64,000 nt of DNA from an archaeon (lineage in GTDB: Archaea; Thermoproteota; Thermoprotei_A; Marsarchaeales; Marsarchaeaceae), in assembly GCA_021817005.1 (NCBI GenBank), contig JAKAWJ010000001.1, forward strand, positions 62,001-126,000, given 5' to 3'. The notes under the pieces are model-generated. The model had not been told where the DNA came from, searched no databases, and saw only the letters and a program-made list of their open reading frames with translations. The position numbers and the translations under genes are program-made. Below are positions 43,171 to 63,432 of this stretch, in pieces. The first letter of the stretch is position 1, and each line of letters starts with the position of its first letter.

Positions 43171-43176
43171 ATTCTT

Positions 43177-44601: not shown

Positions 44602-44618
44602 GAGGAAAGTAATTCCAC

Positions 44619-44951: not shown

Positions 44952-44984
44952 TTGGAATCAAATTTCGATGGAGGTCAAACTTGA

Positions 44985-45512
44985 TTGACGGCTCACAGGT
45001 TGCACCATCTTAATTACGAACGCTCTGCGCTCGAAGCCCTGTTCGGGGGGAGGGGTTACCTTCTCTTCTTTATTGCTCTTTCAGCGTCAGTTTCGGTGCT
45101 GTACATGTTCCTGCTTCCCTCGCTCCCATTGGGAGGGTTCGTGTTCTACGCAATCGAGTTCATAACTCCCATTCAGGTGGCCTTCGCGCTAATCTTCGGT
45201 GTGCTGATAGGCCTGGTCGTCACCCTCAACGTCTACGCGTTCAGATTGCGCGCGTCCTCAGCAAAGAGTCTCACGGTTGGTTCAGTACTTGCGAGCCTAG
45301 TCAACGGTCTCTGCTGCACGCCGATTATACCAAGCCTGATCGCGATGACGGGAGTCTCGACGCCGGTGCTCTACTCGATATCCCCTAGGATTCAGCTCTT
45401 CTTTGAAACCAATTCGGAATACTTCTACTCACTGTCGGTGGTGCTTCTACTCATCTCAATCCATTACCTGAGCCGGAGTATCTCCGCGTGCTGCTTGGAA
45501 AAAAGAGGCTAG
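44985..45512 (+). CDS. Uncharacterised membrane protein with Cys-Cys helix motif (paralogue of 46406-46957)
   Basis: A 175-residue integral membrane protein with about four or five helices (near residues 25-45, 50-62, 65-87, 97-121 and 147-164). The third core helix contains SLVNGLCCTPIIPSLIAMTG (C110-C111), and a second pair CC (169-170) lies at the C-terminus. It shares with the 46406 product the order hydrophobic start, L-x-LN-x-FRLR-type helix, helix with CC-x-P-I, then C-terminal helix. I do not recognise the family. TTG 44985 is the start. Its position in the mer operon and the buried Cys pair suggest metal or thiol handling. Confidence 0.75.
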   Translation: MTAHRLHHLNYERSALEALFGGRGYLLFFIALSASVSVLYMFLLPSLPLGGFVFYAIEFITPIQVAFALIFGVLIGLVVTLNVYAFRLRASSAKSLTVGSVLASLVNGLCCTPIIPSLIAMTGVSTPVLYSISPRIQLFFETNSEYFYSLSVVLLLISIHYLSRSISACCLEKRG

Positions 45513-46279: not shown

Positions 46280-46405
46280 CAAGTGAACGAAGGAGAGTGA
46301 AACCGTATCACGGTCAAGGCTCCCCGGCAAACAGCGGCCCAAGAGAGGCATAGTATAGCTTCGCTTCTCGGGTCGATACTTCATGCACGCAGATACAAGC
46401 TTCTG

Positions 46406-46957
46406 ATGGTCGGTAGCTGGTTGGGTTACTGGTTGCTATACACCGTCTCTGGGGGTATGTTCTTCTATTATTCATCTGATATCACTCCCCTCCTCCATGA
46501 GTACGGTGTGCCCAACCCCTTTTTCTTTAACTCGTTTTCCAGCTTCTCAGGCATTTACAATTCTGCGATTGTCTGGTATCCGAACGGACACCTTCAGGTG
46601 AACATAATCTACGGACCGTTCGTCTTCTCGCTGGTTCTCGCCACGCTCTTCTCCCTGAACACAATACTGACCGTTTTCAGCCTTAGGTTCTCCCAGTTCA
46701 CAAGGAGGGCCGGGCCGTTCGGATTTCTCGCCCTGGTGCCCGCACTCTTCAGCGGAGGCTGTTGCAGTGTACCAATCGGCCTTGCACTCTTCGGTGTATT
46801 CGCCCCGACGGCCGGTCTCGTTACGTTAGTGTATGATTATCCGTACCTGACGAACCTGGCATTCGTAATTCTGATTTCGCTCTCGCTCCTTATTGTGGGC
46901 AGAAGGGTGTCCAGGATGAGTGGCAGGCAATCTGGAGCGGAGAGACAGAGTAGGTGA
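46406..46957 (+). CDS. Uncharacterised membrane protein with Cys-Cys helix motif (paralogue of 44985-45512)
   Basis: At least 183 residues with about four helices (near 4-22, 70-95, 105-131 and 148-166). LVPALFSGGCCSVPIGLALF places C119-C120 inside the third helix, matching C110-C111 of the paralogue. The frame is open and sensible upstream of ATG 46406 (SIASLLGSILHARRYKLLMV aligns with the N-terminus of the paralogue) back to about 46305, but no ATG, GTG or TTG is found there. The true start may therefore be non-canonical or lost by a frameshift from GTG 46300. Last gene of the mercury operon; function unknown. Confidence 0.72.
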   Translation: MVGSWLGYWLLYTVSGGMFFYYSSDITPLLHEYGVPNPFFFNSFSSFSGIYNSAIVWYPNGHLQVNIIYGPFVFSLVLATLFSLNTILTVFSLRFSQFTRRAGPFGFLALVPALFSGGCCSVPIGLALFGVFAPTAGLVTLVYDYPYLTNLAFVILISLSLLIVGRRVSRMSGRQSGAERQSR

Positions 46958-49411: not shown

Positions 49412-49423
49412 CCTTTAAATAAT
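49412..49423 (+). promoter_or_regulatory. Promoter of the sulfur-oxidation cluster
   Basis: CCTTTAAATAAT is the last strong TATA box before the long plus-strand gene run starting at 49476. Gene spacing inside the run is so small that it may drive at least the genes to 59068. Confidence 0.55.
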
Positions 49424-49475: not shown

Positions 49476-50261
49476 TTGGTGGTAGAAGCATTGTCCGTGT
49501 TAAGAAACCTTCCGGCGAGAAAAAAGGAGGAGCAAGCTGAACCCTCGATGCTCCTAGGCGGATCCCGGGACCTTGGATTGGACACCCTTAAACTCGCCCA
49601 GGACATCTACGACCAGTTCACCGCTGACCCGAGGTACAAGGAGTACGTGCTTGGATGCCTGAACTGCGGCGAATGCACAACAGGATGTCCGGCAGCGAGG
49701 TTCTACGATTTCAGTCCAAGGGAAATGCTGCAGGTGGCCATGTCAAACGACCCCTTGGTCCTGTTGAACGCCATGCACGAAAAGATTTGGGCGTGCTGCC
49801 AGTGTTACACCTGCAACATGCGCTGCAGGTTTGGCAACGACATCGCGGGTATAATCAGCGTCATGCGTGAGTTGGCTGTGAAAAATGGCCTCGATAGCGC
49901 TAAGGAGGTTCTGAGACCTTACACGAGGATCCTCCTAAAGGTGATGACAGGTGGCACACAGGTTTCCCCAGACATGATTCAGCCTGACTTCTTCGTTGAC
50001 TGGGGTCCCGACGCGGTTTCAAAGGCATCCGACCTCAAGACTCTCAGAAAGGCTATCCCAATAGACGTTCTTCAGGTTACCGATTCCGCGTGGGAGGTCT
50101 CCATGCAAACCTCCCTTGAGCTCTTCCAGATATATCAAGAGTCTGGGGTGATAGACATGGTCCGGGCGGTTGACCCCGACCTGGTTGAGATGATAACCGA
50201 CATAGTTGACGAGTGGAGAGAGGAGTTCGAGGAGATGAAGGAGAAGTACGGCGTCAGGTGA
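49476..50261 (+). CDS. shdrC1: sHdrC1, iron-sulfur subunit of the sulfur-oxidising heterodisulfide reductase-like complex
   Basis: A 261-residue protein with two [4Fe-4S] ferredoxin-like motifs, C61-x2-C64-x2-C67-x3-C71 (GCLNCGECTTGCP) and C107-x2-C110-x2-C113-x3-C117 (CCQCYTCNMRC). A helical C-terminal half is rich in acidic residues. It is the first gene of a run in the order C1-B1-A-Hyp-C2-B2, which defines the sHdr complex rather than the methanogen HdrABC. It should relay electrons from the HdrB/HdrA centres. Start TTG 49476 or GTG 49479. The next gene is 12 bases downstream. Confidence 0.88.
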   Translation: MVVEALSVLRNLPARKKEEQAEPSMLLGGSRDLGLDTLKLAQDIYDQFTADPRYKEYVLGCLNCGECTTGCPAARFYDFSPREMLQVAMSNDPLVLLNAMHEKIWACCQCYTCNMRCRFGNDIAGIISVMRELAVKNGLDSAKEVLRPYTRILLKVMTGGTQVSPDMIQPDFFVDWGPDAVSKASDLKTLRKAIPIDVLQVTDSAWEVSMQTSLELFQIYQESGVIDMVRAVDPDLVEMITDIVDEWREEFEEMKEKYGVR

Positions 50262-50273
50262 GATGGAAACAAA

Positions 50274-51548
50274 ATGGGGATTTTGAGTGCTGACCAGATA
50301 AGAGAAGTCGTCAAGGCTAGGGCTGAAAACAGATCGGTGTCCGACAAGAAGGTTTCCGACGTAAGAGAAGAAATGTGGACGCTGCATGATAGAGGCGAGT
50401 TGATCGTTATCCCGATAACCCCCGAAAACAAGCCTGTTGAAGTCGAGACGCTCTTCGGGTGGAAGAAGAGAGTTCCCACTGACAAGCTCTGGCACCACAA
50501 GTCGTGCGGGCAGTGCGGCAACATTCCGGGCTACCCCGCCTCCCTGCTGTGGTTCATGAACCAGTTTAAAACCACGTATCTGAACGAGCCTCACCAGACA
50601 TCATGCACCGCGTGGAACTACCACGGCTCGGGGACTTCCAACCCCGTCGCGCTAGCAGCCGTGGCGGTGAGGAACTGGTACAGGGCGTACGAGACAGGTA
50701 CCTATCCCCTGATACACTGCGGCACTAGCTACGGGGACTACAAGGAAATGCGCAAGGTGCTGGTCGAAAACAAGGAGGTTAGGGACAAGGTTCGCGAAAT
50801 AATGCATCATATGGGGAAGGAACTCGTGATACCCGAGGAGATAGTTCACTACAGCGAGTGGGTTCACGTCAAGAGGGACGAGATCGCTTCAATGGTTAAG
50901 TACGAACTGAAGGACGTTGTTGCAACAGTTCACGAACCATGCCACTACTATAAGATGGTGCCAGAGGATGCGATATACGACAGCAGCGTCTTGGGGGGTC
51001 AGAGGCCGGCTCCCCCCACTGCTCTCCTGCAGAAGATGGGCGTGAACGTTGCAGATTACAGCACTTGGTACGACTGCTGCGGATTCGGCTTCCGACACAT
51101 ATTGACTGAAAGAGAGTTCACCCGGAGCTTCGCCACGCTCAGGAAGATCAAACCCATGGTGGAGGAGGCTCACGCGGACGTGGCGATAACCACAGATACG
51201 GGTTGTGTGACCACTCTTGACAAGAGTCAGTGGGTCGGCAAGGTTCACGGAATGGATTTCTTGGTGCCCGTGCTCGCGGAGGTTCAGCTCGCAGCACTTG
51301 CGGCTGGTGCACACCCCTACAAGATTGTTCAGGTTCACTGGCACACGTCTCCGGTTGAGAAACTGATGGAGAAGATGGGGATAGACTACCAGTCTTACAG
51401 GAAGGACTTCACCGAGTACCTGAACCAGATAAAGTCGGGTGGAAAAATCGAGTACCTGTATGACCCCCACAGCGAAATCGAGAAGTATTTCGCAGTGAAC
51501 AAGGGTCAGGTGATTGTTGAGGAGCAGGCGCTCAAACGCGGTGAATAG
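50274..51548 (+). CDS. shdrB1: sHdrB1, CCG-domain catalytic-type subunit
   Basis: A 424-residue HdrB-like protein with two cysteine-rich regions. The N-terminal one has HKSCGQCGNIPGYP (C78, C81) and HQTSCTAWNYHG (C111). The C-terminal one follows the CCG pattern: HEPCHYYKMVPED (about C223), WYDCCGFGFRHI and TDTGCVTTLD. In HdrB such cysteines hold non-cubane [4Fe-4S] clusters at the disulfide site. In sHdr they are thought to act on sulfane sulfur bound to LbpA. ATG 50274 is the start. The length exceeds methanogen HdrB (about 300), as is usual for sHdrB1. Confidence 0.88.
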   Translation: MGILSADQIREVVKARAENRSVSDKKVSDVREEMWTLHDRGELIVIPITPENKPVEVETLFGWKKRVPTDKLWHHKSCGQCGNIPGYPASLLWFMNQFKTTYLNEPHQTSCTAWNYHGSGTSNPVALAAVAVRNWYRAYETGTYPLIHCGTSYGDYKEMRKVLVENKEVRDKVREIMHHMGKELVIPEEIVHYSEWVHVKRDEIASMVKYELKDVVATVHEPCHYYKMVPEDAIYDSSVLGGQRPAPPTALLQKMGVNVADYSTWYDCCGFGFRHILTEREFTRSFATLRKIKPMVEEAHADVAITTDTGCVTTLDKSQWVGKVHGMDFLVPVLAEVQLAALAAGAHPYKIVQVHWHTSPVEKLMEKMGIDYQSYRKDFTEYLNQIKSGGKIEYLYDPHSEIEKYFAVNKGQVIVEEQALKRGE

Positions 51549-51553
51549 AAGAG

Positions 51554-52627
51554 TTGAGTTCTCCGCGCATACTAGTAGTGGGTGGAGGGCCGGCCGGGCT
51601 TAGTGCGGCTTGGGATCTAGCAGAAGCCGGGGCAAACGTTGTATTGGTCGAGGAGGAGGGCTTCCTAGGAGGCACACCAAAGAAGCTACACTACAGTCTG
51701 ATTGCGCCGGACCTCAAACCTGTGCAGGAGGTTCTTGACCCCCTTGTGAGGAGGGTTGAGCAGTCGGGCGTCGAGGTGATGCTCAACTCCGAGGTTGCGT
51801 CATTCAAGGGTTCTGGCGACGGCTTCCATGTTGAGGTGCGTCGAAAAGGCGGGTCGCTCGAAAGCCACGTGTTTGACTCTGTGATAGCGGCTACAGGGTT
51901 CGCTCACTGGGATCCGCACAAGAAGTACGAGTACGGATACGGCGTATACCCCGATGTCTTGGACTTCAAAGATTTCGAGAGGATGCTGAGCGAGGACAAT
52001 CTTCGCAGGCCCTCGAACGGTGAGACCCCCAAAAGAATTGCGTGGCTTCTGTGCGTTGGGTCACGGGACAAGCAGGTTGGGAAGTTTTACTGCTGCAGAA
52101 TGGGGTGCGTGGTGTCTATCAAGCAGGCCATGGAGGTCAGGCAGAAGCACCCCGAGATTGATACCTACGTTTACTATATGGATATACGCACGTATGGATT
52201 CTGGGAGGATAAAGTCTACTGGCGTTCCATGGAGGAGTTCAACGTAAAGTTCGTCAGGGGTAGAATAGGCTCGATAAACAGGGGTGAGGACGGCAGGCTC
52301 GTAGCGATGGCTGAGGACACGATTCTGCAGAGACCCACCGAGGTGCCATTCGACATGCTCGTGCTGGCGACCGGCATGGAAGCGAGCAGGGGAACTGTTG
52401 AATTCGCAAAGCTCGCCGGACTGGAGCTAGAGGAACACGGATTTATTAAACCGCTTCAATCTGACTCGCTACCCGTTCACACTACGGTTGAAGGAATATT
52501 CGTGGCTGGGACCGCGACGGGACCCAAAGCTATTCCGGACTCGGTCTCTGAGGGTTCTGCAGCCGCGATGAAGGCTTTGAACTTTGCGAGGAGAAAAGCT
52601 GTTGCAGAACGCCAGCAGACACGATAG
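51554..52627 (+). CDS. shdrA: sHdrA, flavoprotein subunit
   Basis: A 357-residue FAD protein. The dinucleotide fold starts immediately (ILVVGGGPAGLSAAWDLAEA) with VVLVEEEGFLGGTPKKLHYS after it. A cysteine block CVGSRDKQVGKFYCCRMGC (about residues 172-190) matches the cluster-binding segment of HdrA-type proteins. The second FAD motif lies near the end (EGIFVAGTATGPKAIPDSVS). It lacks the extra ferredoxin domains of methanogen HdrA, in line with the smaller sHdrA. Start TTG 51554, five bases after sHdrB1. It is expected to be the central electron hub of the complex. Confidence 0.9.
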   Translation: MSSPRILVVGGGPAGLSAAWDLAEAGANVVLVEEEGFLGGTPKKLHYSLIAPDLKPVQEVLDPLVRRVEQSGVEVMLNSEVASFKGSGDGFHVEVRRKGGSLESHVFDSVIAATGFAHWDPHKKYEYGYGVYPDVLDFKDFERMLSEDNLRRPSNGETPKRIAWLLCVGSRDKQVGKFYCCRMGCVVSIKQAMEVRQKHPEIDTYVYYMDIRTYGFWEDKVYWRSMEEFNVKFVRGRIGSINRGEDGRLVAMAEDTILQRPTEVPFDMLVLATGMEASRGTVEFAKLAGLELEEHGFIKPLQSDSLPVHTTVEGIFVAGTATGPKAIPDSVSEGSAAAMKALNFARRKAVAERQQTR

Positions 52628-53315
52628 CGGAGGAGTGGAGGAGGTTTACGACTCCACTCTCGGACAGCTCTCCGAAGGCGATGTGTCCTTCCTCAGAACG
52701 TCGCTAACCAAAAAGTCACAGATTATCACGTCCTCGATAACGGGCAAGGAGCAGCTTGAAACCCCCGACTACATCACGCTGATGAAGTTGTGTTTTCCGG
52801 CGAAACGATACGCGTCAGCCATAGTGAGTCAAACCGACGCGCGCGTGCTCGAAGAAGCTTTCAAGTCTCTGCGAAACTCTAGGACCGAGCCGGAAGATGT
52901 GGTAACAAGGTTTCGGAGGTTGCAGGGATGCCCGGCGGATGTGAGCTGGGATCTGGCGGCCGAGCTGATACATTTTGTGAATCCCGACCGCTACGGCTTG
53001 GCTACGAGATGGGTTTGGAACCCCGAGAGAGGCACGGGTGCACTTGCACCACTTCTCACGGTGACTCATGAACGCTCCTTTACAAGAATACAGCTCGCCT
53101 TGGCCGAACTGAATTCCGCGATAGGAAACATGAACCGCGGCTTTACGGGGTTTTACGGGCTGACGGTCATGTGTGCGCTTACGTATGCCGGCAACATAAT
53201 AGGAGCCAAGGATTCGGCGATCAACTCGGGAGGAATGGAGGCGCTGTTCCCGGACTCGGGTACCCTTGCGCTCATGATCCTCGGCCTCGGGAGGCTTTCC
53301 TATGCCCATACATGA
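52584..53315 (+). CDS. sHyp, conserved component of the sHdr cluster
   Basis: A 243-residue soluble protein without cysteine motifs or cofactor signatures. TSLTKKSQIITSSITGKEQL and RFRRLQGCPADVSWDLAAEL are representative, and it appears mostly helical. By position between sHdrA and sHdrC2 it corresponds to the hypothetical protein always present in sHdr loci, whose role is unknown. ATG 52584 overlaps the end of sHdrA by 44 bases. GTG 52635, preceded by a purine-rich GCGGAGGAG, would avoid the overlap. Its end overlaps sHdrC2 by 14 bases. Confidence 0.8.
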   Translation: MRGEKLLQNASRHDSGGVEEVYDSTLGQLSEGDVSFLRTSLTKKSQIITSSITGKEQLETPDYITLMKLCFPAKRYASAIVSQTDARVLEEAFKSLRNSRTEPEDVVTRFRRLQGCPADVSWDLAAELIHFVNPDRYGLATRWVWNPERGTGALAPLLTVTHERSFTRIQLALAELNSAIGNMNRGFTGFYGLTVMCALTYAGNIIGAKDSAINSGGMEALFPDSGTLALMILGLGRLSYAHT

Positions 53316-53997
53316 AAAGAACTTGGTGGATAAGGATAGGCTACTCGTAAAGGAGGAAGCCAAGCTCGACGGCTTGGATGTCTCGGGTCAGTGGAGCACA
53401 TTCATCGAGCAGCGGATACTCGGAGACTATTCAACCGATGTCTTGGACGCGGTCGCATCCACCCCCGCCGGCAAAACCATAGTCAACTGCTGGCAGTGCG
53501 GCACTTGCACCGCAGGCTGCTGTATGCACACAGACTTCGGGCTGCGCGAGTTCAACCCCCGCTACTTCATTTACCTGGCGCAGAAGGGGGCTGAGGATGA
53601 GTTGAAGAAGTACGCGCCCGTAATCTGGAGGTGCGTCACGTGCAACAAATGTGTTGAACGCTGCCCGAAAGGCGTCAGGGTGGAAGAAGTTGTTCACTCT
53701 ATAGAAGGATACATGCGTTCAAAGGGCTGGATGGGCGACACCCCGGCGTCGAGATGGGATGAGGCCTTCGTTAAAAACACGTTGCAGACGGGTGTGCTCG
53801 ACGAGCTCGCGCTCACCCGCTCATATGTGAGCCGCGAAAAACTGGCGGAATTCAACAACAGGTTCATGCTCAGGATGGCACTGAAACTTGTCAGGACAGG
53901 TAGAATCAGGACCGGCCCTCTGAGGCACAGGGTTAAGGGATGGGAAAAGGTGCGTGACGTCGCAAAGGAGATACTTGAAGGCGGAGGCGAAGGTTGA
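53302..53997 (+). CDS. shdrC2: sHdrC2, iron-sulfur subunit
   Basis: A 231-residue protein with two cubane-cluster motifs: C63-x2-C66-x2-C69-x3-C73 (NCWQCGTCTAGCC) and C111-x2-C114-x2-C117-x3-C121 (RCVTCNKCVERCP). It is the second HdrC-type subunit of the locus and differs from sHdrC1 outside the cluster regions. ATG 53302 overlaps sHyp by 14 bases, and the stop is one base before the preferred start of sHdrB2. Translational coupling along C2-B2 is therefore evident. Confidence 0.88.
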   Translation: MPIHEKNLVDKDRLLVKEEAKLDGLDVSGQWSTFIEQRILGDYSTDVLDAVASTPAGKTIVNCWQCGTCTAGCCMHTDFGLREFNPRYFIYLAQKGAEDELKKYAPVIWRCVTCNKCVERCPKGVRVEEVVHSIEGYMRSKGWMGDTPASRWDEAFVKNTLQTGVLDELALTRSYVSREKLAEFNNRFMLRMALKLVRTGRIRTGPLRHRVKGWEKVRDVAKEILEGGGEG

Positions 53998-53998
53998 A

Positions 53999-54913
53999 GT
54001 GCAGGAGAAAATCGGCGGAATGGCGTTTTACCCTGGGTGTTCGCTGGACGGCTTGGGTAAAGCGTATGAGAAGTCGGCCAAAGCAGTTATCCACGACCTT
54101 GGAATCCAGGTGGAGAATATCAAGAACTACAACTGCTGCGGGGCGACCGAGGTTAAGACGGTTAACTACGATCTTTCGGTGTTCCTACCTGCGCGAAACC
54201 TAGCATTAGCGAAGAACATGGGTTCGGGCGTTGTCGTGGCGCCTTGTAACGGGTGCGTCTACAGTCTGAGCAGAGCCAACAAAGCCGTCACGGAGGATGA
54301 GTCAACCCGCCAACGCATAAACGGATACCTGGGCAAGGCGGGTGTGTCATCCTACGACGGCAGCGTGGAGGTCAAGCACCTGCTCGAAGTGATATATCAG
54401 CGAGCCGGCCCGCAGGCGGTTCGCTCTCATGTTAAGAAACCCCTGAGCGGGCTCAAGGTGGCCTGCTACTACGGGTGCCTGTATACCCGGCCAAAGGTAT
54501 ATACTGGTGCGGGGCTCCAGGAGGGCAAGGACAACCCAGAGCACCCGCACTACATGGATGATCTCCTCGAAGCAGCCGGGGCGACCGTGGTCGATTTCAG
54601 TGCGAAGACAATCTGCTGCGGCGGGGGCCATGCAGTAGCCGATAGAGAGGTCTCCCTCGGGTTTTCTGCGGCGATTCTGAACGAGGCTACCAGGGCTGGC
54701 GCAGACGTTGTGTCGACCATGTGTCCTCTGGGACATATCAACATCGAAACCAACATACCGAAGATAATTGAGCAGTACGGTGACGCAATAGTGCGGCCAG
54801 TGATGTATTTCACCCAGCTTCTGGGGGTGGCGTTCGGACATAGCAGGAAAGACGTAAGACTAGCCGACAACTTTTCAGGCGCGGACACGGCCATGCACAG
54901 GCTTGGCTTTTAG
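53999..54913 (+). CDS. shdrB2: sHdrB2, CCG-domain subunit
   Basis: A 304-residue HdrB-type protein with two complete CCG domains: FYPGCSLDGLG (C14), YNCCGA (C46-C47) and APCNGC (C83, C86), then ACYYGCLYT (C156, C160), ICCGGG (C206-C207) and TMCPLGH (C242). This is close to the canonical HdrB pattern, more so than sHdrB1. GTG 53999 (VQEKIGGMAFYPGC) directly follows the sHdrC2 stop. GTG 53954 would overlap sHdrC2 by 44 bases. It is likely the site of non-cubane cluster chemistry on the persulfide or disulfide of the carrier. Confidence 0.88.
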   Translation: MQEKIGGMAFYPGCSLDGLGKAYEKSAKAVIHDLGIQVENIKNYNCCGATEVKTVNYDLSVFLPARNLALAKNMGSGVVVAPCNGCVYSLSRANKAVTEDESTRQRINGYLGKAGVSSYDGSVEVKHLLEVIYQRAGPQAVRSHVKKPLSGLKVACYYGCLYTRPKVYTGAGLQEGKDNPEHPHYMDDLLEAAGATVVDFSAKTICCGGGHAVADREVSLGFSAAILNEATRAGADVVSTMCPLGHINIETNIPKIIEQYGDAIVRPVMYFTQLLGVAFGHSRKDVRLADNFSGADTAMHRLGF

Positions 54914-54931
54914 GAGGAGACAGATTGGGAT

Positions 54932-55381
54932 ATGGCTATAATAAATGGATGTGAACTGCCGGAGAACTTACTGTACTATCTTGAGGGAAACCAGATGACT
55001 TGGATTCGCGTGGAAGGAGAGCTGGCCACGGTGGGGCTCACCGATCCCGCCCAGACCCGCGCGGGTAAAATCCTTCATGTGAGGATGCGTTCACCCGGAA
55101 CACAGCGGGAGAGCAACAAGCCGCTTGCAACGATCGAAAGCGGTAAGTGGGCTGGGCCGGTGATGTCGCCTGTTGCAGGTGTCGTTGAGAAAGTCAACGA
55201 GAAACTTGACGCCACCCCTTCGCTCATAAATGAAGACCCGTACGGCGAAGGTTGGATAAGCCAGGTCAGGTTCTCAAATCAGGCGCAGCTCTCTTCTCTC
55301 CTCAAGGGTGGGGAGGCACTCAAGCGTTATCAGGAAATTCTTACTAGGGAAAATATCCGGTGTATAAGGTGCCAGAAGTAG
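54932..55381 (+). CDS. lbpA: LbpA, lipoate-binding protein of sulfur oxidation (GcvH-like)
   Basis: A 149-residue GcvH-fold protein. The lipoyl-lysine site is K72 in ATIESGKWAGPVMSPVAGVV. The rest of the hammerhead fold is visible (WIRVEGELATVGLTDPAQT). In glycine cleavage H-protein the site usually reads ESVKAA, while the altered ESGKWAG and the position after sHdrB2 identify the sulfur-oxidation carrier LbpA. It should carry sulfur on dihydrolipoate while the sHdr complex oxidises it to sulfite. No glycine-cleavage genes are nearby. The C-terminus ends with an unusual IRCIRCQK (two cysteines). The start is ATG 54932. Confidence 0.9.
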   Translation: MAIINGCELPENLLYYLEGNQMTWIRVEGELATVGLTDPAQTRAGKILHVRMRSPGTQRESNKPLATIESGKWAGPVMSPVAGVVEKVNEKLDATPSLINEDPYGEGWISQVRFSNQAQLSSLLKGGEALKRYQEILTRENIRCIRCQK

Positions 55382-55391
55382 CTCGCGGTGA

Positions 55392-55778
55392 GTGGTAGAG
55401 GTGTCGTCGCCCGAAGGTAAGAAGATGCTTTTCGTGATGACCACGGGTCCCGAGGACCCTGAGAAGACCTATGCTCCGCTCTATACCGCGGCTCTCTCGG
55501 CCGCCATGGAGGTTGACACATCGATGTACTTCCTAATGCACGCCCCCAAACTCCTCAAGAAGGGCGCGGCAGAGCAAGTGAAGCTGAAGAAGGGTGGCAC
55601 CCTCAAACAGTTCATAGATATGGCCATGCAGAACGGGGTCAAGTTCTACGTGTGCGAGGAAAGCTTGGTGGACCTGTGTGAAATACGTCCTGAGGAACTT
55701 GTAGGGGGCGTGAAGGTGGTGGGTTCTTCGACGCTCACCGACCTCGCGCTCGACGCCGACTCCGTGGTGAGCTTCTAG
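55392..55778 (+). CDS. DsrE-family sulfur-carrier protein
   Basis: A 128-residue DsrE/DsrF-fold protein. KMLFVMTTGPEDPEKTYAPL, TSMYFLMHAPKLLKKGAAEQ and NGVKFYVCEESLVDLCEIRP show the fold, with C88 at the usual persulfide position and a further C96. DsrE-type proteins pass sulfane sulfur between TusA-like carriers and downstream enzymes. This one lies between LbpA and the lipoate ligase, a place often taken by DsrE3-type proteins in sHdr loci. The exact subclass is not resolved. Start GTG 55392 (GTG 55401 possible). Confidence 0.82.
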   Translation: MVEVSSPEGKKMLFVMTTGPEDPEKTYAPLYTAALSAAMEVDTSMYFLMHAPKLLKKGAAEQVKLKKGGTLKQFIDMAMQNGVKFYVCEESLVDLCEIRPEELVGGVKVVGSSTLTDLALDADSVVSF

Positions 55779-55786
55779 GGGGATTG

Positions 55787-56917
55787 ATGTACACGCCCCG
55801 CCTGGAGGTAATCAGGATGGGTGCGGTCGACGGCTACACAATGACCAACACGTTCGTCACACTAGCAGAATCGGTTTCACAGGGGAGGCGGGGCGACGTG
55901 CTTGTGGTGTGCCACCCCGCCGCCCCGTTTGCAAACGTAGGCTTTCACCAGAACGCGTCCGCTGAACTCGATCTCGACTACTGTAAGGAAAACGGCATAC
56001 CCGTGGTCAGGAGAGTGATAGGCGGAGGTGCGATAGCCGACGGCCCCTGGGAGCAGGACTATTTCTTCATAACTAGGATAGGATCGCCGGCTACCTACGG
56101 TACAATAACGGATTACTATGAACGGATGCTTGAGCCTGTGCGTAGAGTGCTGGAGCGCCTCGGCGTTAGAGCAGCTAAGGAGGGGCTGAATGACCTCGCA
56201 GTGAACGGCAGGAAGATCAGCGCAAACGGCGCCGTGGACATAGGCGGCGCCCGGGTGCTAACAGGTGACATACTTCTGTCACTCAACATCCAAGCCATGG
56301 CGGGCATCCTGCGCGTGCCCGACGCAAAATTCAGGGATAAGATGGCCAAATCAATGCAGGCGTACCTGACATCTGTAAAACAGGAAACATGTTCAGAGCC
56401 GGACCGCCCCCTCGTTGAAAACCTGATTGTTCAGGAGTTCTCCTCAATCTACGAGGAAGGCTCAAGTGAATCATCACTCACCACGGATGAACTCAGGGCG
56501 CTTGAAAACCTGATCTCTGAAAAAAAGAGGCCAGACTGGGTGTTTTCAAGAGACGGCCACGCAAACGAGGTTCGGGAGTCGCTTAGCAGAAGGATAGTCA
56601 AGATCAAGGAGGGCATGTTTCTGTGCGCATCCGACTACAAGGCTCGAAAGCTCATCAGGGTAATCCTGCTTGTAGATTCGGGAAGGATAGTCGAAGCGTC
56701 GTTTTCAGGCGACTTCTTCACCGTTCCGGTGACCTGGAGCCTTTCATCCCTAGAAGAACGTTTGAAGGGGGTTAGCCTCGACCGATCCACGGTAAGCCGG
56801 GTTTTGGCGGCCGAGTTCAGCCGGTCTGGCGTCACGGTGCTAGGCGCAACGTTGGACGATTTCATAAACGCGGTGCTTGATGCCGTGAATCACCCCGTAG
56901 CCGCCCCAGCGAGATAG
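55787..56917 (+). CDS. Lipoate-protein ligase for LbpA (sLpl-type, biotin/lipoate ligase fold)
   Basis: A 376-residue protein. The ligase core (about residues 1-200) has VCHPAAPFANVGFHQNASAE, the lipoyl-AMP loop VRRVIGGGAIADGPWEQDYF (about 74-93) and the lysine region NDLAVNGRKISANGA. The C-terminal 150 residues form the accessory domain (IVKIKEGMFLCASDYKARKL). It differs from LplA in the loop (RRVIGGGA in place of RRxTGGGA), as expected for the dedicated ligase of sulfur-oxidation LbpA proteins. It would attach lipoate or its precursor to K72 of LbpA. ATG 55787 follows AGGGGGA. Lipoyl synthase genes are not in the window. Confidence 0.82.
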   Translation: MYTPRLEVIRMGAVDGYTMTNTFVTLAESVSQGRRGDVLVVCHPAAPFANVGFHQNASAELDLDYCKENGIPVVRRVIGGGAIADGPWEQDYFFITRIGSPATYGTITDYYERMLEPVRRVLERLGVRAAKEGLNDLAVNGRKISANGAVDIGGARVLTGDILLSLNIQAMAGILRVPDAKFRDKMAKSMQAYLTSVKQETCSEPDRPLVENLIVQEFSSIYEEGSSESSLTTDELRALENLISEKKRPDWVFSRDGHANEVRESLSRRIVKIKEGMFLCASDYKARKLIRVILLVDSGRIVEASFSGDFFTVPVTWSLSSLEERLKGVSLDRSTVSRVLAAEFSRSGVTVLGATLDDFINAVLDAVNHPVAAPAR

Positions 56918-56987
56918 GTGCTGGCCGACGACAACGGCACTAGAGCAGATTCTGTCAGGCGTACCCTACCCCGAACTCAACGAGTCA

Positions 56988-58112
56988 GTGACCGAATCTG
57001 GTGCGGTGCTCGGCGCCGAAAGAGATGGTGCAAGCTACCTGGTTACGCTCAGGATACCCTATCCGGGTTACCCTTTCGCGGAAGTGCTTCGTTCCGACAT
57101 AGAGTGGGCGGGGGCGAAGGCCGGCGTGGGCGTCAAGGTGAAGTTTGCCGCAGGCGACGCGACGTGGGCTGACGGCTGCCTGAGCCGGTTCAAAGTCTCC
57201 TCTCGCCCTGGGGGGCCGGAGAGAATCGAGCTTCCGGTTGCCGAATCCGGTCAACCCGTCCGCCGCGCGGGTGACTTAGCCGGGATCGACGCGCTGCCGC
57301 GCAGAGGAGTGCGGAAAATCGTTGCGGTGGCTTCGGGTAAGGGGGGAGTGGGTAAAAGCTTTGTTACGGCCTCGTTAGCCACACACCTCAGACTCCTTGG
57401 ATTCAACGTGGGCATACTGGACGCCGACATAACCGGGCCGTGCATCTCCAGAATGCTTGGCGTCACGGGCCTTCCTCGCCTGAAGGAGAACAAGATGATG
57501 CAGCCTCTTGAAACCCAGCTTGGAACAAAGGTGATGGCGGTGGACCTGATAATGGACAGGTTCAAGACTCCACTGATATGGAGGGGCCCACTGATCAATA
57601 GCGCGATCAGGGGGCTTTTCTCGGAGACGGACTGGGGGGACATCCATTACCTCCTCGTCGACCTCCCTCCCGGCACAAGCGACGCGCCGCTTACGGTGTT
57701 TCAGTCGCTTCGCCCGGACGCGGTCGTGTTTGTAACCAGTCCCATGCTCGTGGCCAAGACCGTGGTCGCGAGGGCGGTGACAATGGCCAAAGAGCTTGGT
57801 GCGCCGATCCTCGGCGTGGTTGAAAACATGTCGTACATGGCTTCCCCGAGCGGTGTGCGAGTGAACGTGTTCGGGAGAGGGGGGACCGAGGAGTCGGTGA
57901 AGGACCTTGGGGTGAGCTACCTAGGTTCTCTCCCGCTAGACCCCGCGGTGAGCGGGCTGGCGGACAGGGGGGAAATCGAATTCTACCGCAGCCCCGAGCT
58001 CTTCGCCGTCGCGAGATTTGTGAGGTTCGGGCTGATGCGTCTGGGCAAGCCCGTGGAGCCGGCATTCTGGACCCCTAAGTCCGCGGTGGCTGGCAGTGGG
58101 GGTGGCGGATGA
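56988..58112 (+). CDS. Mrp/ApbC-family P-loop ATPase with MIP18-like N-terminus
   Basis: A 374-residue protein from GTG 56988. The P-loop is VAVASGKGGVGKSFVTASLA (deviant Walker A, about residues 112-131), with ILDADITGPCISRMLG and LVDLPPGTSDAPLTV completing the Mrp core. It is an iron-sulfur cluster carrier or scaffold by family and may mature the many clusters of sHdr and Apr. Two oddities stand out. The CxxC cluster-binding motif of typical Mrp proteins is absent, because the segment reads ENMSYMASPSGVRVNVFGRG. The N-terminal MIP18 domain also begins upstream of the start (ALEQILSGVPYPELNES) without a start codon; a frameshift near 56940 would join it to GTG 56918. Confidence 0.82.
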   Translation: MTESGAVLGAERDGASYLVTLRIPYPGYPFAEVLRSDIEWAGAKAGVGVKVKFAAGDATWADGCLSRFKVSSRPGGPERIELPVAESGQPVRRAGDLAGIDALPRRGVRKIVAVASGKGGVGKSFVTASLATHLRLLGFNVGILDADITGPCISRMLGVTGLPRLKENKMMQPLETQLGTKVMAVDLIMDRFKTPLIWRGPLINSAIRGLFSETDWGDIHYLLVDLPPGTSDAPLTVFQSLRPDAVVFVTSPMLVAKTVVARAVTMAKELGAPILGVVENMSYMASPSGVRVNVFGRGGTEESVKDLGVSYLGSLPLDPAVSGLADRGEIEFYRSPELFAVARFVRFGLMRLGKPVEPAFWTPKSAVAGSGGGG

Positions 58113-58453
58113 TGGAGATACTGATGCTGCTTTTCACGACGCCTGTGCAGCACCGCAACACCGAGAGAGCCCTGATGCTGGCCAAGTCGTTCGTGGAGGC
58201 GGGGGACAAAGTACACGTGTTCCTCCTCGGCGATGGAGTGTACAACGGGTCCTCGGCTCTGATTTCGGGCGAACCAGCCGAGGCTGCGGCTCAGCTGCTC
58301 AGCCTACCATCCGTCACGGTGACAGCGTGCATCACGTGCGTAAAGGCAAGAAGGATCTCCCTTTCGCCGGGCGTATCCGCGGGCGGCCTCGACGACCTGA
58401 GCGAACAGCTTGAGCGCTGCGACACGGCGATTTCACTTACATCCGAGGCGTAG
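58109..58453 (+). CDS. DsrE/TusD-like sulfurtransferase subunit
   Basis: A 114-residue DsrE-fold protein. MMEILMLLFTTPVQHRNTER opens it, and VTACITCVKARRIS places C74 and C77 at the position of the active-site cysteine of DsrE. ATG 58109 overlaps the stop of the Mrp gene (ATGA). With the next two genes it forms a set shaped like DsrE-DsrF-DsrH, the heterohexamer that carries persulfide sulfur. A TusA partner is not in the window. Confidence 0.78.
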   Translation: MMEILMLLFTTPVQHRNTERALMLAKSFVEAGDKVHVFLLGDGVYNGSSALISGEPAEAAAQLLSLPSVTVTACITCVKARRISLSPGVSAGGLDDLSEQLERCDTAISLTSEA

Positions 58454-58456
58454 GCT

Positions 58457-58783
58457 TTGAAGTACACCGTAGCCCAGACCCACCCTCCCCTAAACAGCGC
58501 CCACGTCACAGAGTCGGTGAGGCTGTCCTACATGCTTCTGGGCTACGGACACAAGGTGGACTATGTGTTAGTCGACGACGGAGTGTACCTTCTGCTCGAA
58601 TGGCGCGGATCATCCTTTGGCAAAGAGTCGCTGAAGAGGCTCACAGCGGAATCGGGTTTCAAGCTGTTCGCGTGCACACAAAGCGCAGAGTCGAGGGCGC
58701 TTGCAATCCCAGAGCAGTGCACGCCTCTTACTCCCCCGCAGATAGGTGAAAAGCTGCTTACGTCGAAAGTGGTGGTGTTCTAG
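58457..58783 (+). CDS. DsrF/TusC-like protein
   Basis: A 108-residue protein beginning KYTVAQTHPPLNSAHVTESV, the typical DsrE/F first strand and helix with SYMLLGYGHKVDYVLVDDGV following. C83-type cysteine (FACTQSAESRALAI) and one later Cys are present. Second member of the three-gene set, starting at TTG 58457, three bases after the upstream stop. It is assigned as the DsrF-like subunit by order and size. Confidence 0.68.
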   Translation: MKYTVAQTHPPLNSAHVTESVRLSYMLLGYGHKVDYVLVDDGVYLLLEWRGSSFGKESLKRLTAESGFKLFACTQSAESRALAIPEQCTPLTPPQIGEKLLTSKVVVF

Positions 58784-58789
58784 ACATCA

Positions 58790-59068
58790 ATGAACGTGGT
58801 CTACCTCCTGACTAGGGTTTTACACAGGGATTCATCTATATGGGATATCATGGCGCACACCGCCGGGAGCCATGAGGTGACGGTGGTTGTGGTCGGCCAG
58901 GGGGTTCTTAACTACTCGGCCCCAGGACTCGGACGCGTTTCATCGGCGGGCGCGAAGGTTTACGCGCTGGACGACGGTTCAATTCAGCCGCCGCCAGACG
59001 CCGCACGCATCCCCGTCTCCGAGTTACCGGGCGTCGTAAGACGCAGCCACAGACTGATCTCGTTCTGA
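58790..59068 (+). CDS. DsrH/TusB-like protein
   Basis: A 92-residue protein: MNVVYLLTRVLHRDSSIWDI, then HEVTVVVVGQGVLNYSAPGL and KVYALDDGSIQPP. The small size, the DsrH-like strand pattern and the third position after DsrE- and DsrF-like genes support the call. No cysteine is present, so it would not itself carry a persulfide, unlike DsrH of purple bacteria. This is the last gene of the first tightly packed block. A 99-base gap follows. Confidence 0.6.
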   Translation: MNVVYLLTRVLHRDSSIWDIMAHTAGSHEVTVVVVGQGVLNYSAPGLGRVSSAGAKVYALDDGSIQPPPDAARIPVSELPGVVRRSHRLISF

Positions 59069-59167
59069 CGCGGGCGCGGTTCTGCACGCGTTGCGCTGAG
59101 CCCGCCAAAAAAAGGCAGAGCAGGAAAAAGTTAAGTTATCCCATGTTCAAGAGAAACCCGGTTGTCA

Positions 59168-59941
59168 ATGTCAACCCTGGCTAACTCTGTTTTCCACGAT
59201 CCGCTGGACTTCAGGGTTTTCGTTTTGGTGATGTTTGTGGGGATGGTGATAGGCCTAGCCTACGACGCCCTAGCTGGCGGGAAACTCGCTTTCTTCCGTC
59301 AGGAGAGAAGCTGGCGGCGAACAATGTATGGAGGCTCTTCCACAGCTTCTTCTCCGGGGCCATCTGTCGTTGCGAGCTCAGTTGTCAGGGATGTGGCAGG
59401 CGCAGCCCCCCTTCTTGGCTGCGGCTCAAAATATTCCAGGTGGGCTTCACACATACTGATGGAATGGGGATTCCTGATAACCGTGATATACACGGCTGCA
59501 AGGTTCTTCGCGTACCCCGCTTTCGCGCCGTTCGCGCTCGACTCCCCTGCTCAGTTGGCGCTAACAGCCGGCTATGCGATGATGGTGACTGGGTGCGCCA
59601 TGTTCCTCTTCCAGAGGGTCAACGTGTCGAAGGAGGGAAGGGCGGTGTTCACATATTCGTCGGGAGACAGGTTCGCGACGGGGGTGTTCGCCTACTCGGC
59701 TACAGGGCTGATCTACGAGTTCGCGTATGCAGGCTGGGGCCCGGCTGGTGGACCAGTGTATTTTTGGTTCGGAGTTTACCTTGCGGCGACAGCCTACCTG
59801 TTCTTGACAGTCCCTTGGACCAAGTTTTCACACATGTTCTACAAGGCCGTGTACAATGTTCAGCGCAGACTCGACGAGCAAGCGGGGCTGGTGCACGTCC
59901 CTGGGCCATCTGACAAGGTCTACGTCAAGGAGGGAAGCTGA
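59168..59941 (+). CDS. AprM/QmoC-like membrane cytochrome b subunit (NarI-like)
   Basis: A 257-residue membrane protein with about five helices (near residues 17-37, 93-115, 122-144, 165-185 and 193-213). The helix starting SHILMEWGFLITVIYTAARF and the end VPWTKFSHMFYKAVYNVQRR each supply a histidine, consistent with bis-His b-type haem ligation as in NarI, DsrM, HdrE and QmoC. Encoded directly before AprBA, it most likely links APS reductase to the quinone pool, the role proposed for AprM in sulfur oxidisers. ATG 59168 is preferred over TTG 59162. Confidence 0.75.
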   Translation: MSTLANSVFHDPLDFRVFVLVMFVGMVIGLAYDALAGGKLAFFRQERSWRRTMYGGSSTASSPGPSVVASSVVRDVAGAAPLLGCGSKYSRWASHILMEWGFLITVIYTAARFFAYPAFAPFALDSPAQLALTAGYAMMVTGCAMFLFQRVNVSKEGRAVFTYSSGDRFATGVFAYSATGLIYEFAYAGWGPAGGPVYFWFGVYLAATAYLFLTVPWTKFSHMFYKAVYNVQRRLDEQAGLVHVPGPSDKVYVKEGS

Positions 59942-60400
59942 TTGCCAACATTCGTGTACATGTCTTCGTGCGACGGATGCGGGAAATGTGTGGAGATATG
60001 CCCAAGCGATATAATGCACATAGACCCTCATATCCGCAGGGCGTACAACTCCGAACCCGAGATGTGCTGGGAGTGCTATTCATGCGTGAAATACTGCCCG
60101 GAGAACGCGATCGATGTCAGAAGCTATGCCGACTTTAACCCGCTCGGTCACTCGGTGACCGTTCGAAGGGAGCCCGCCAAGGGGGTGATCTCGTGGCGTA
60201 TAAGGTTTAGAGACGGGCGCGTCAAGCACTTCGTCTTCCCCACGAGAACAACAAGGGAGGATTCCATTCCCTCCTCGAGATCTTATCCTGAACCGGCAAG
60301 GGAACTTCTGGAAGACCAGGTGCTGTCTCATGAGCCAGACAAACTCATGGTTCCCAGCCTTCCCAAGCTCCCCCCAAGACCCAGTGACGGAAGGGCGTGA
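59942..60400 (+). CDS. aprB: Adenylylsulfate reductase, beta subunit
   Basis: A 152-residue ferredoxin-like subunit. Two [4Fe-4S] motifs are SSCDGCGKCVEICP and CWECYSCVKYCPENAI, followed by the AprB tail that wraps around AprA (SYADFNPLGHSVTVRREPAK, then ISWRIRFRDGRVKHFVFPTR). It passes electrons between the flavin of AprA and the membrane subunit encoded before it. Start TTG 59942 directly follows the upstream stop. Length and order (aprB before aprA) match both sulfate reducers and sulfur oxidisers. Confidence 0.93.
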   Translation: MPTFVYMSSCDGCGKCVEICPSDIMHIDPHIRRAYNSEPEMCWECYSCVKYCPENAIDVRSYADFNPLGHSVTVRREPAKGVISWRIRFRDGRVKHFVFPTRTTREDSIPSSRSYPEPARELLEDQVLSHEPDKLMVPSLPKLPPRPSDGRA

Positions 60401-60406
60401 AGGACG

Positions 60407-62245
60407 ATGCGTGTTTCGGGCAAAACCAAGGTCGTGGATACCGACATACTGGTAGTGGGCGGAGGATTTGCAGGCTGCGGCGCAGTTTACGAGTCGGCCT
60501 ACTGGGGTAGAAACCTCAGAATAACCTTGGTGGAGAAGGCCAACATAGAGCGCAGCGGCGCGGTGGCTCATGGGCTCTCAGCGATCAACCTGTACATTGG
60601 AATGCGCTGGAATGAGAACAAGCCCGAGGACTTTGTGAGGTACGCAAGAGGCGACCTTGTTGGACTGGTCCGGGAGGACCTCCTGTTCGACATAGCTAGG
60701 CACGTGGACTCCACTGTCCACCTGTTTGAGGAGTGGGGGCTTCCGATGATCTACGACAAGAACACGGGTCATTACCAGAGGGAGGGCAGGTGGCAGATCA
60801 TGATACACGGAGAATCCTACAAGCCCATCGTCGCCGAGGCGGCGAGGAGGTCCGCAACCGAGGTTTACAACCGCGTGATGGTGACTCACCTTCTGAAGGA
60901 TCCACGTATCCCCAACAGGGTCTCGGGTGCGGTGGGGTTCAATGTAAGAGATGGCTCGTTCTACATCTTCCGGGCAAAGGCTGTGATAGTCGCAGCGGGG
61001 GGTGCGTCCCACATTTACAGGCCCAGATCCGTGGGAGAGGGGGCAGGCAGAACCTGGTACCCGCCATGGAATAACGGCTCCGCGTATGCGTTGCCGATAC
61101 AGGCTGGCGCGTCGATGACCCAGATGGAGAACAAGCTGGTCGTTACCAGGTTCAAAGACGGCTACGGACCTGTGGGGTTTTACTTCCTCGCCTTGAAAGC
61201 TGTCGCGACAAATGTCTATGGCGAAGAGTACGAAAAAACAAAGTTCGAAGAGTTGAGGAAGCTTGTTGGCAAGTGGGCTGATGCAAAACCGCTTCCGACA
61301 TGCTTCAGAAACCACGTGATGCTTCAGGAGATCAAGGAGGGCAGGGGCCCGATACTGATTCACACTGAAAGGGTGACAGAGACGCCTGAGAAAGAGGAGG
61401 CGGCGTGGGAGGACTTCTTGGACATGACCATTGGCCAAGTGGGAATGTGGGCGGCCAACAACATAGACCCCAAGGACAAACCTTCCGAGTTGACCACCTC
61501 TGAGCCATACGTGATGGGTTCGCACGCCGTGGCCGCTGGGGCTTGGGTGAGCGGCCCGGCTGATCTTTCTCCGAAGGGATACTTCTGGGGATATAACAGG
61601 ATGCTCACCGTGGAGGGGCTGTTCGGGGCGGGTGACACCGTGGGCGGCAGCCCGCACAAGTTTTCAAGCGGGTCGTTCACGGAGGGAAGACTCGCCGGTA
61701 AAGCCGCGGTCAAATACGTCCTCGACCACCCCGACTACACCCCTGGAACGGATGAGTCCGTTGTCAGCCGGCTCAGAGACACGATTTTTAAGCCCCTCGA
61801 AAACTACAATCTGGGCCGCAACATGGTTGTCGCGGGCACGGTCGCGCCCAACTACATCTACCCCCGCCACGGCTTGAACAGGCTTGAAAAGATCATGGAT
61901 GAATATGCCGGTGGCGTGAGCACGTTCTACGTCACCAACGAGCAACTTCTTGCAAGGGGGCTGGACCTGATCTTGACGCTGAAGGAGGACCTGAGCCACC
62001 TTGCGGCCGAAGACCTTCACCAGCTGCAGAGGGCTTGGGAGCTCAACCACAGGGCGTGGGTTTCCGAGGCCGTGGTACGGCACACCATATTCAGGAAGGA
62101 GACACGCTGGCCCGGCTACTACTATAGAGCTGACTACCCGAAGATAGACGATGACCACTGGAACGTTTTCACAGTGTCCGGCTACGACCCCATAAGCGGC
62201 GAGTGGACAATGACCACGAAGCCCGTGATCAAGTTGGTGGACTGA
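60407..62245 (+). CDS. aprA: Adenylylsulfate reductase, alpha subunit
   Basis: A 612-residue flavoprotein that interconverts APS with sulfite plus AMP. The FAD-binding N-terminus is DILVVGGGFAGCGAVYESAY. Family hallmarks are VEKANIERSGAVAHGLSAIN, AGGASHIYRPRSVGEGAGRT and the substrate-region SEPYVMGSHAVAAGAWVSGP, followed by GLFGAGDTVGGSPHKFSSGS. Length is normal for AprA. In combination with sHdr and the membrane subunit, the oxidative direction (sulfite to APS) is inferred. The sequence alone would also permit sulfate reduction, but no DsrAB is present in the window. ATG 60407 is the start. Confidence 0.95.
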   Translation: MRVSGKTKVVDTDILVVGGGFAGCGAVYESAYWGRNLRITLVEKANIERSGAVAHGLSAINLYIGMRWNENKPEDFVRYARGDLVGLVREDLLFDIARHVDSTVHLFEEWGLPMIYDKNTGHYQREGRWQIMIHGESYKPIVAEAARRSATEVYNRVMVTHLLKDPRIPNRVSGAVGFNVRDGSFYIFRAKAVIVAAGGASHIYRPRSVGEGAGRTWYPPWNNGSAYALPIQAGASMTQMENKLVVTRFKDGYGPVGFYFLALKAVATNVYGEEYEKTKFEELRKLVGKWADAKPLPTCFRNHVMLQEIKEGRGPILIHTERVTETPEKEEAAWEDFLDMTIGQVGMWAANNIDPKDKPSELTTSEPYVMGSHAVAAGAWVSGPADLSPKGYFWGYNRMLTVEGLFGAGDTVGGSPHKFSSGSFTEGRLAGKAAVKYVLDHPDYTPGTDESVVSRLRDTIFKPLENYNLGRNMVVAGTVAPNYIYPRHGLNRLEKIMDEYAGGVSTFYVTNEQLLARGLDLILTLKEDLSHLAAEDLHQLQRAWELNHRAWVSEAVVRHTIFRKETRWPGYYYRADYPKIDDDHWNVFTVSGYDPISGEWTMTTKPVIKLVD

Positions 62246-62271
62246 GCGCTGACTAGTGGGGCCGATCCAGC

Positions 62272-63432
62272 TTGATTCCAGCACCCTACGGTGGAAAACT
62301 CGTGAATGGATACGTTGACACCGCGCACGCAGACTCTTGGAAGGAAGAGTTCGAAGAAACAACTGTCCTGAACTCGCCTGTGGACTGTGTGTACGACGCC
62401 GATAAAATCGCTTGCGGAGCTTACTCTCCGCTACAGGGGTTCATGAACGAGTCTGAGTACAGCTCGGTGATAGGCAACTCCAGGTTACCCGGCGGCCTTC
62501 CTTGGACCATGCCCATAGTGTTCCTCCCACTCGGAAACCAAGAGCAGAAGCTGAACAGCCTGAAACCCGGCGACACAGCGGGTATACGGGGTCTCGACGG
62601 CGAGCCGTTCGCACTTGTTAAAGTAGAGGAAAAATACGTGATAGATAAGGGAGAGTTCGCCCAGAAGGTGTACGGCACCAAGGATCCAGCCCACCCGAAC
62701 GTCGCGGACCTCGCGGGGACGGGTGAAACAGCTGTCGCGGGCAGGGTGACGTGCGTTGGCAAGCTGCGCGTTCCATCAGGAGATTACGAGCTCACGCCCA
62801 CGCAAACCAGAAAATACTTCGAGAGAATGGGGTGGAGAAACGTCGCGGCCTACCAGGCGAGGAATCCCCCGCACACCGCTCACGAATACATTCAGAGGCT
62901 GAGCCTTGAAAGGGAGGATGTTGACGCCCTGATGATCCAGCCAGTGGTTGGCAAACTCAAGAAGGGCGACTACAAGACGGAGGTTATCATGCGTGCATAC
63001 GCGAGATTTGTTGAAAACTACTATCCGAAGGACACGGTGCTGCTCTCATCTCTGTCAATAGCCATGCGCTACGCCGGCCCCAAGGCGGTACTGTTCTACG
63101 CCATTGTCAGACGTAACTACGGGTGCTCCCACTACATAGTCGGAAGAGACCAGGCGGGTGTCGGAAGTTACTACGACCCCTATGCGTGCCACAGGATATT
63201 CGACGAATTCGATGTAGGCGTCAAACCCCTCAGGTACAGGGAGTCGTTTTACTGCAAGGTGTGCGGCTGGATGGCTTCCTCCAAGGTGTGTCCTCATCCT
63301 CAGTCCGAGCACGTGAACACGAGTCAGACAAGGATCAGGAGCCTCCTCGCCGAAGGCAAGCCTCTGCCCCCGGAGATACTTAGGCCGGAAGTGGCGGACG
63401 TGCTCAGGCAGGGAGAGGTCATAAACGACTAG
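62272..63432 (+). CDS. sat: Sulfate adenylyltransferase (ATP sulfurylase)
   Basis: A 386-residue homo-oligomeric ATP sulfurylase. The nucleotide site QARNPPHTAHE (about residues 195-205) and GRDQAGVG (291-298) are complete. A C-terminal zinc site is present (C328-x2-C331-x8-C340-x-H342, YCKVCGWMASSKVCPHP), as in dissimilatory Sat proteins of Archaeoglobus and sulfur oxidisers. In the oxidative direction it makes ATP and sulfate from APS and pyrophosphate. No APS kinase domain is attached. TTG 62272 is the start; the gene lies 26 bases after aprA and belongs to the same run. Confidence 0.95.
   Translation: MIPAPYGGKLVNGYVDTAHADSWKEEFEETTVLNSPVDCVYDADKIACGAYSPLQGFMNESEYSSVIGNSRLPGGLPWTMPIVFLPLGNQEQKLNSLKPGDTAGIRGLDGEPFALVKVEEKYVIDKGEFAQKVYGTKDPAHPNVADLAGTGETAVAGRVTCVGKLRVPSGDYELTPTQTRKYFERMGWRNVAAYQARNPPHTAHEYIQRLSLEREDVDALMIQPVVGKLKKGDYKTEVIMRAYARFVENYYPKDTVLLSSLSIAMRYAGPKAVLFYAIVRRNYGCSHYIVGRDQAGVGSYYDPYACHRIFDEFDVGVKPLRYRESFYCKVCGWMASSKVCPHPQSEHVNTSQTRIRSLLAEGKPLPPEILRPEVADVLRQGEVIND

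Follow-up and report, generated by a model that had tools for sequence, protein, structure and literature searches.

A putative sHdr-AprMBA-Sat operon for sulfur oxidation in an uncultured archaeon

An archaeal metagenome-assembled genome (MAG) carries a block of 17 genes that leads from sHdr through AprMBA to Sat. Very probably it is a single operon serving dissimilatory sulfur oxidation, with an aerobe or facultative aerobe as host. The block occupies positions 49476-63432 of the 64,000-nucleotide stretch analysed here (the window; G000:C5:62001-126000), and the MAG (G000) has a size of 1.93 Mb, is 85% complete and is 0.8% contaminated. All 17 genes lie on the + strand, with intergenic gaps of -44 to +93 bp, in the order sHdrC1-B1-A-Hyp-C2-B2, LbpA, DsrE, lipoate ligase, Mrp, three DsrE/F/H-like genes, AprM, AprB, AprA and Sat. 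An earlier, sequence-only reading of this DNA had proposed that an oxidative path from sHdr via Apr to Sat is encoded in one archaeal operon, and at the level of genes our results support this proposal. The gene order and names that it gave are borne out by Pfam and NCBIfam; its count of sixteen is not, since its single 'dsrE/F/H-like' entry comprises three genes. Domains detected outside AprB, AprA and Sat include GCV_H, LplA, ParA/Mrp, CCG and Fer4. Names resting on other grounds are those of sHdrHyp and the DsrH-like protein (position) and of AprM (a QmoC-like match plus synteny). The tight spacing, together with a candidate archaeal TATA-like box (CTTTAAATA, 49413-49421, + strand) read from the sequence about 55 bp 5' of the first start codon, is consistent with a single transcription unit.

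In the proposed pathway, a type I sHdr complex would receive sulfane sulfur from DsrE, the DsrEF-like proteins, a DsrE3-like protein and TusA and, with lipoylated LbpA, oxidize it to sulfite. AprBA would then join sulfite and adenosine monophosphate (AMP) to form adenosine 5'-phosphosulfate (APS), with the electrons passing to the membrane via AprM, and Sat would convert APS and pyrophosphate to sulfate and adenosine triphosphate (ATP). The evidence consists of gene order, family membership, active-site residues, phylogenetic placement, the absence of a dsrA match and the presence of a haem-copper oxidase; from these we infer expression, the direction of the reactions, the sulfite product, the gain of ATP and the source of the sulfur. 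Both halves of this pathway are known and their combination is known in bacteria; for a joined sHdr-AprMBA-Sat operon in archaea we found no prior report in a non-exhaustive survey of the open-access literature. The fate of sulfite in Sulfolobaceae has been stated to be unknown, and certain Sulfolobaceae have been called the only archaea known to oxidize elemental sulfur (PMC11323534). A single sHdr-AprMBA-Sat operon would provide archaea with a concrete route, open to testing, by which sulfane sulfur becomes sulfate and ATP is formed at the substrate level, in an uncultured order of the class that contains Sulfolobaceae and probably from acid mine drainage, a habitat where sulfur oxidation makes acid. 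The chemistry itself would be expected by a specialist; the unity of the operon and the exchange of sHdr forms described below would be surprising.

The sequence-only reading had placed this archaeon in what might be a different phylum from Sulfolobales, but by its taxonomic placement G000 shares both phylum and class with family f9 and belongs to another order. We take f9 to be Sulfolobaceae because PDB 3MC3, a Saccharolobus solfataricus protein, is almost the same as the DsrE of one of its genomes (G204), and because sHdrB1 is present throughout its genomes. Among 229 genomes of the class, strong sHdrB1 matches were restricted to f9 and the family of G000, while the AprA cut-off was passed only by G000, G001, G002 and G005, all of the latter family, with an AprA fragment (80% identity) in G004; sHdr and Apr thus occur together only in the family of G000. 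A wider sample of 398 genomes from the phylum added AprA in families f25 and f34 and sHdrB1 in G396 and G456, and again only the family of G000 had both. The expectation that sHdr-bearing Sulfolobales lack Apr was also confirmed for the Sulfolobaceae-like genomes of the class, in none of which a scan with TIGR02061 found a true AprA; this result stands beside claims, made from BLAST searches, that other Sulfolobales have APS reductase genes (reviewed in PMC8551704). In Acidianus ambivalens an APS route of sulfite oxidation has been inferred from enzyme activities (reviewed in PMC8551704). That route has the same proposed second-half chemistry as the window; however, an APS reductase gene has not been identified in A. 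ambivalens, whereas the window encodes a bona fide AprBA.

The first six genes form the sHdr module. sHdrC1 (49476-50261, 261 aa) matches HdrC models and has two 4Fe-4S motifs. The proposed catalytic subunit, sHdrB1 (50274-51548, 424 aa), has a CCG domain and is 55-59% identical to Sulfolobaceae-like and bacterial sHdrB1, while sHdrA (51554-52627, 357 aa) is a flavoprotein shorter than HdrA, matched by HdrA models over about half the length and 49-52% identical to its counterparts in f9 genomes. Next come sHdrHyp (sHdrH; 52584-53315), with 24-34% identity to Sulfolobaceae-like equivalents, sHdrC2 (53302-53997), which matches HdrC models, and sHdrB2 (53954-54913), which has two CCG domains and an HdrB model match and is 48-52% identical to Sulfolobaceae-like proteins. 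The Fe-S cysteines of sHdrC1, B1, C2 (eight in each) and B2 are all invariant across the homologues aligned (19/19; 11/11 for B2). Type I sHdr is defined as shdrC1B1AHC2B2 in one syntenic cluster (PMC11582611), and the window has this full C1-B1-A-H-C2-B2 synteny; it also has the two further marks used in that study, namely placement among known sHdr and a complete set of Fe-S cysteines. Type II was considered and rejected for the window, where C2 and B2 are separate genes and the block has neither a fused shdrB3 nor etfAB. In a tree of C1-B1-A the window sHdr groups with Sulfolobaceae (87/83), with bacteria next; support for this grouping is modest, and the alternative topology, with bacteria, was not rejected (p=0.18). 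The type I sHdr-LbpA system of Sulfolobaceae (Group II arrangement, PMC6067878) resembles the window in its sHdrC1B1AHypC2B2 order, in an adjoining DsrE, LbpA and lipoate ligase, and in having TusA and DsrE3A nearby, and B1, A, B2 and C1 are 48-59% identical between the two. Unlike those of the window, the Sulfolobaceae genes are spread over several operons, and none of the Sulfolobaceae genomes scanned had a TIGR02061 AprA.

The last four genes form the AprMBA-Sat module. The gene called 'cytb' in the earlier annotation is AprM (59162-59941), the membrane anchor, which matches the membrane part of QmoC, shows conserved His and aligns with proteobacterial AprM encoded directly 5' of aprBA (23-39% identity to AprM preceding aprBA elsewhere). 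AprB (59942-60400), of the lineage-I/crenarchaeal form, scores 179 against the TIGR02060 aprB cut-off of 136; in alignments the Trp for electron transfer is retained and the five residues that form a loop in sulfate reducers are missing. AprA (60407-62245) scores 939 against the TIGR02061 aprA cut-off of 642 and conserves the equivalents of the catalytic residues Asn74, Trp234, Arg265 and His398. Sat (62272-63432), the ATP sulfurylase, scores 423 against the PRK04149 cut-off of 387, has the motifs QxRNPPHTAHE and GRDQAG and a counterpart in PDB 8A8D, and is of the archaeal form (61-67% identical to archaeal relatives, about 40% to sulfur-oxidizing bacteria). Published marks of the oxidative Apr lineage I, of which Pelagibacter is a member, are an aprM directly before aprBA, an AprB without the charged sulfate-reducer loop but with a negatively charged insert in its beta-sheet segment, an AprA clade apart from sulfate reducers and a genome without qmo (PMC2211403). 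The window Apr carries the gene order, the loopless AprB and the AprA clade. No qmo gene was seen in reading the locus, where AprM stands in its place; no genome-wide search for qmo was made. In the AprA tree, the archaeal sequences and Proteobacteria including Pelagibacter form one clade (100/99), with Archaeoglobus, Desulfovibrio and Thermoproteales-like sequences outside it. Within this clade no archaeal sequence falls among the sampled bacterial lineage-I AprA, the archaeal branches lying outside them all; a test of the archaeal sequences as one clade gave p=0.20. The bacterial AprMBA of lineage I (PMC2211403, PMC5099947) shares with the window the aprM-aprB-aprA order, the missing AprB loop and 62-71% identity in AprA, but the window differs in its archaeal host, in its branching position outside the sampled bacteria and in its Sat. 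Six bacterial genomes (G021, G232, G234-G237) have both sHdr and aprMBA, although at separate loci rather than in one operon.

Between the two modules lie genes for lipoate attachment and sulfur transfer. LbpA of the sHdr pathway has been described as having a GcvH fold, a lipoyl Lys and two Cys near the termini (PMC6067878). In the window LbpA (54932-55381), the GCV_H domain, the lipoyl Lys in ESGKW and both cysteines (Cys7 and Cys144) are present, the residues being conserved in 11/11 sequences. The DsrE-type sulfurtransferase that follows (55392-55778) has a DsrE domain, is 45-48% identical to sHdr-linked DsrE of f9 genomes and is the equivalent of the Sulfolobus protein adjoining sHdr. Lipoate assembly for sHdr has been described as using an sLpl(AB) ligase encoded nearby together with LipS1/LipS2 (PMC10332631). 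A ligase of this type, with LplA-B_cat and C-terminal domains and 37% identity to the ligase adjoining LbpA in G195, is encoded at 55784-56917; a single radical-SAM query for LipS1/LipS2, run without a positive control, gave 0 matches. An Mrp/ApbC-type Fe-S cluster carrier (ParA/NUBPL; 56988-58112) separates the ligase from the DsrE/F/H-like trio: a DsrE/TusD-like protein (58109-58453; DsrE Pfam match, a weak TusD model match and Cys74/Cys77), a DsrF/TusC-like protein (58457-58783; DsrE Pfam match) and a DsrH/TusB-like protein (58790-59068), which has 0 Pfam matches and was named by position and size. Past the window, the same contig continues downstream with an Lrp/AsnC regulator, a DsrE3-like gene and, beside it, tusA, a gene that the sequence-only reading had proposed seeking in the genome. 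The order sat, Lrp regulator, DsrE3-like gene, tusA is repeated in G002, with the first three keeping their relative orientations, and there tusA is followed by a lipoate ligase, LbpA, DsrE and sHdr. This match in gene order indicates that the sHdr, carrier and Apr-Sat parts remain linked across genera.

Some points weigh against the proposed pathway. Apr and Sat are reversible enzymes. Of the negatively charged insert that lineage I has in AprB, the window retains only part, a two-residue insert with weak charge (REPAKG). The DsrH-like protein has 0 cysteines, which means that sulfur relay through the DsrEFH-like set cannot follow the exact course known from purple sulfur bacteria. Lastly, dsrA had no TIGR02064 match in G000 or its five relatives (G001-G005), but with a MAG that is 85% complete this absence is not proof, although the relatives agree. 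It may be that the block yields no net energy and instead clears a surplus of sulfane sulfur or sulfite or provides APS. Basal hdr genes in Sulfolobaceae have been suggested to have first managed toxic sulfur compounds (PMC11323534). We consider such a detoxifying or assimilatory role improbable, as a complete 17-gene operon with a membrane anchor, AprM, exceeds what it would need, and the operon contains no APS kinase.

Sulfate reduction would have Sat and Apr working forward to sulfite, which would be reduced elsewhere, and the reversibility of both enzymes permits this. The aprAB and sat genes, with dsr, of mine-drainage Nitrososphaeria, which are archaea of similar habitat, have been published in this sense (PMC10833072). 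One genome of this type, G022, has an AprMBA-Sat unit like that of the window (69% identity in AprA, 61% in Sat); unlike the window, it lacks sHdrB1 and has DsrA-like genes. The sequence-only reading had named an AprA in the sulfate-reducer clade and dsrAB elsewhere in the genome as signs that would speak for reduction. Neither was seen: forcing the archaeal AprA together with sulfate reducers was rejected (p=0.007), and dsrA, used to look for dsrAB, was not found in G000-G005. Furthermore, the locus has AprM rather than Qmo, sHdr-LbpA is in the same operon, and a haem-copper oxidase gene (COX1, contig C26) provides G000 with a terminal oxidase. On this evidence sulfate reduction seems quite improbable, and archaeal aprAB-sat should not be taken as sulfate reduction by default. 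Because G022, a Thaumarchaeota MAG, has the same Apr lineage, that lineage is not new to archaea. A lineage-I-like AprMBA-Sat was seen, with DsrA-like genes, in the Thaumarchaeota MAG FK_Sedi_A_Bin.149 (L011 8878-12990; L157, L158), which suggests that the sulfate-reducer reading of such genomes deserves a second look.

With sulfur oxidation as the favoured function, the archaeal origin of the block is a separate question, which the sequence-only reading had also raised. G000 has a complete archaeal 16S gene, on a different contig. Its genus is represented by another MAG, G001 (L009; archaeon isolate FK5.bin12, where we take FK to mean the Fankou mine), and this has the same cluster, with proteins 94-99% identical to those of the window, which makes a chimera unlikely. 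G+C content at third codon positions (GC3) is 0.69 in the cluster and 0.58 in the remaining window (p=2e-6), a difference that may reflect horizontal acquisition or high expression. The G001 bin contains bacterial 16S rRNA fragments (L095, L096; C59, C61), a sign of some contamination in G001. A bacterial contaminant or chimeric contig, to which the GC3 difference and these fragments might point, is hardly credible given the presence of the locus in two MAGs, an Apr-Sat unit with AprA and Sat at 64-73% identity in two more genera of the family (G002 and G005), the archaeal form of Sat and the archaeal TATA-like box.

The family does not have a uniform sHdr. In G002 and G005 the sHdr locus consists of C1, B1, A, a shortened C2, a QmoC-matching membrane protein and a small conserved protein; sHdrB2 was not found in these two genomes and Hyp was not seen at their sHdr locus. 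Loci of this sister form were recovered from four genomes in three families (L164 2597-7082; L163 8085-12877; L200 86-4964; L201 6268-11102), two of which, G396 and G456, lie outside the class and share the form with 100/100 support in the C1-B1-A tree. A single common origin of the whole family's sHdr was rejected (p=3e-68). As read from its genes, the C1-B1-A-C2-QmoC-like form is neither the published type I nor the published type II. In G002 it adjoins the same kind of Apr-Sat unit as in the window. In G396 and G456 it adjoins a molybdenum oxidoreductase of the dimethyl sulfoxide reductase family, to which G396 (L200) adds an Fe-S/NrfD protein and a sulfite exporter of the TauE type (L200 4948-10159; L201 11106-13907). 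The molybdenum enzyme beside the G396 sHdr had no close PDB match at E 1e-60; direct sulfite oxidation, as by Soe, is a possible function for these neighbours. As unrelated sulfite-handling modules adjoin archaeal sHdr, sulfite is the natural reading of its product. A joint reading, which we put forward tentatively and would not yet favour, is that AprMBA-Sat has been stable in the family while the sulfur-to-sulfite module was swapped. In this scheme genus g1 would have a Sulfolobaceae-like soluble type I sHdr, and genera g2 and g4 a third, apparently undescribed type (C1-B1-A-C2, without B2 but joined by a cytochrome b resembling QmoC and by a small protein), which would feed electrons directly into quinones. 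The same scheme holds that bacterial sulfur oxidizers may have received AprMBA from archaea, given the position of archaeal AprMBA outside every bacterial lineage-I AprA sampled.

Three further observations were made. Two genomes of family f34, G462 and G474 (L181, L182), have a sulfate-reducer-type AprA unlike that of the rest of the family, likely through lateral transfer. The window encodes a membrane (H+ or Na+) pyrophosphatase at 20954-23014, which bears on the pyrophosphate that Sat needs. Upstream of the cluster, a mercury resistance-like block at 42832-46957 comprises a MerA-type reductase (43177-44601), small proteins and a redoxin (45488-46279).

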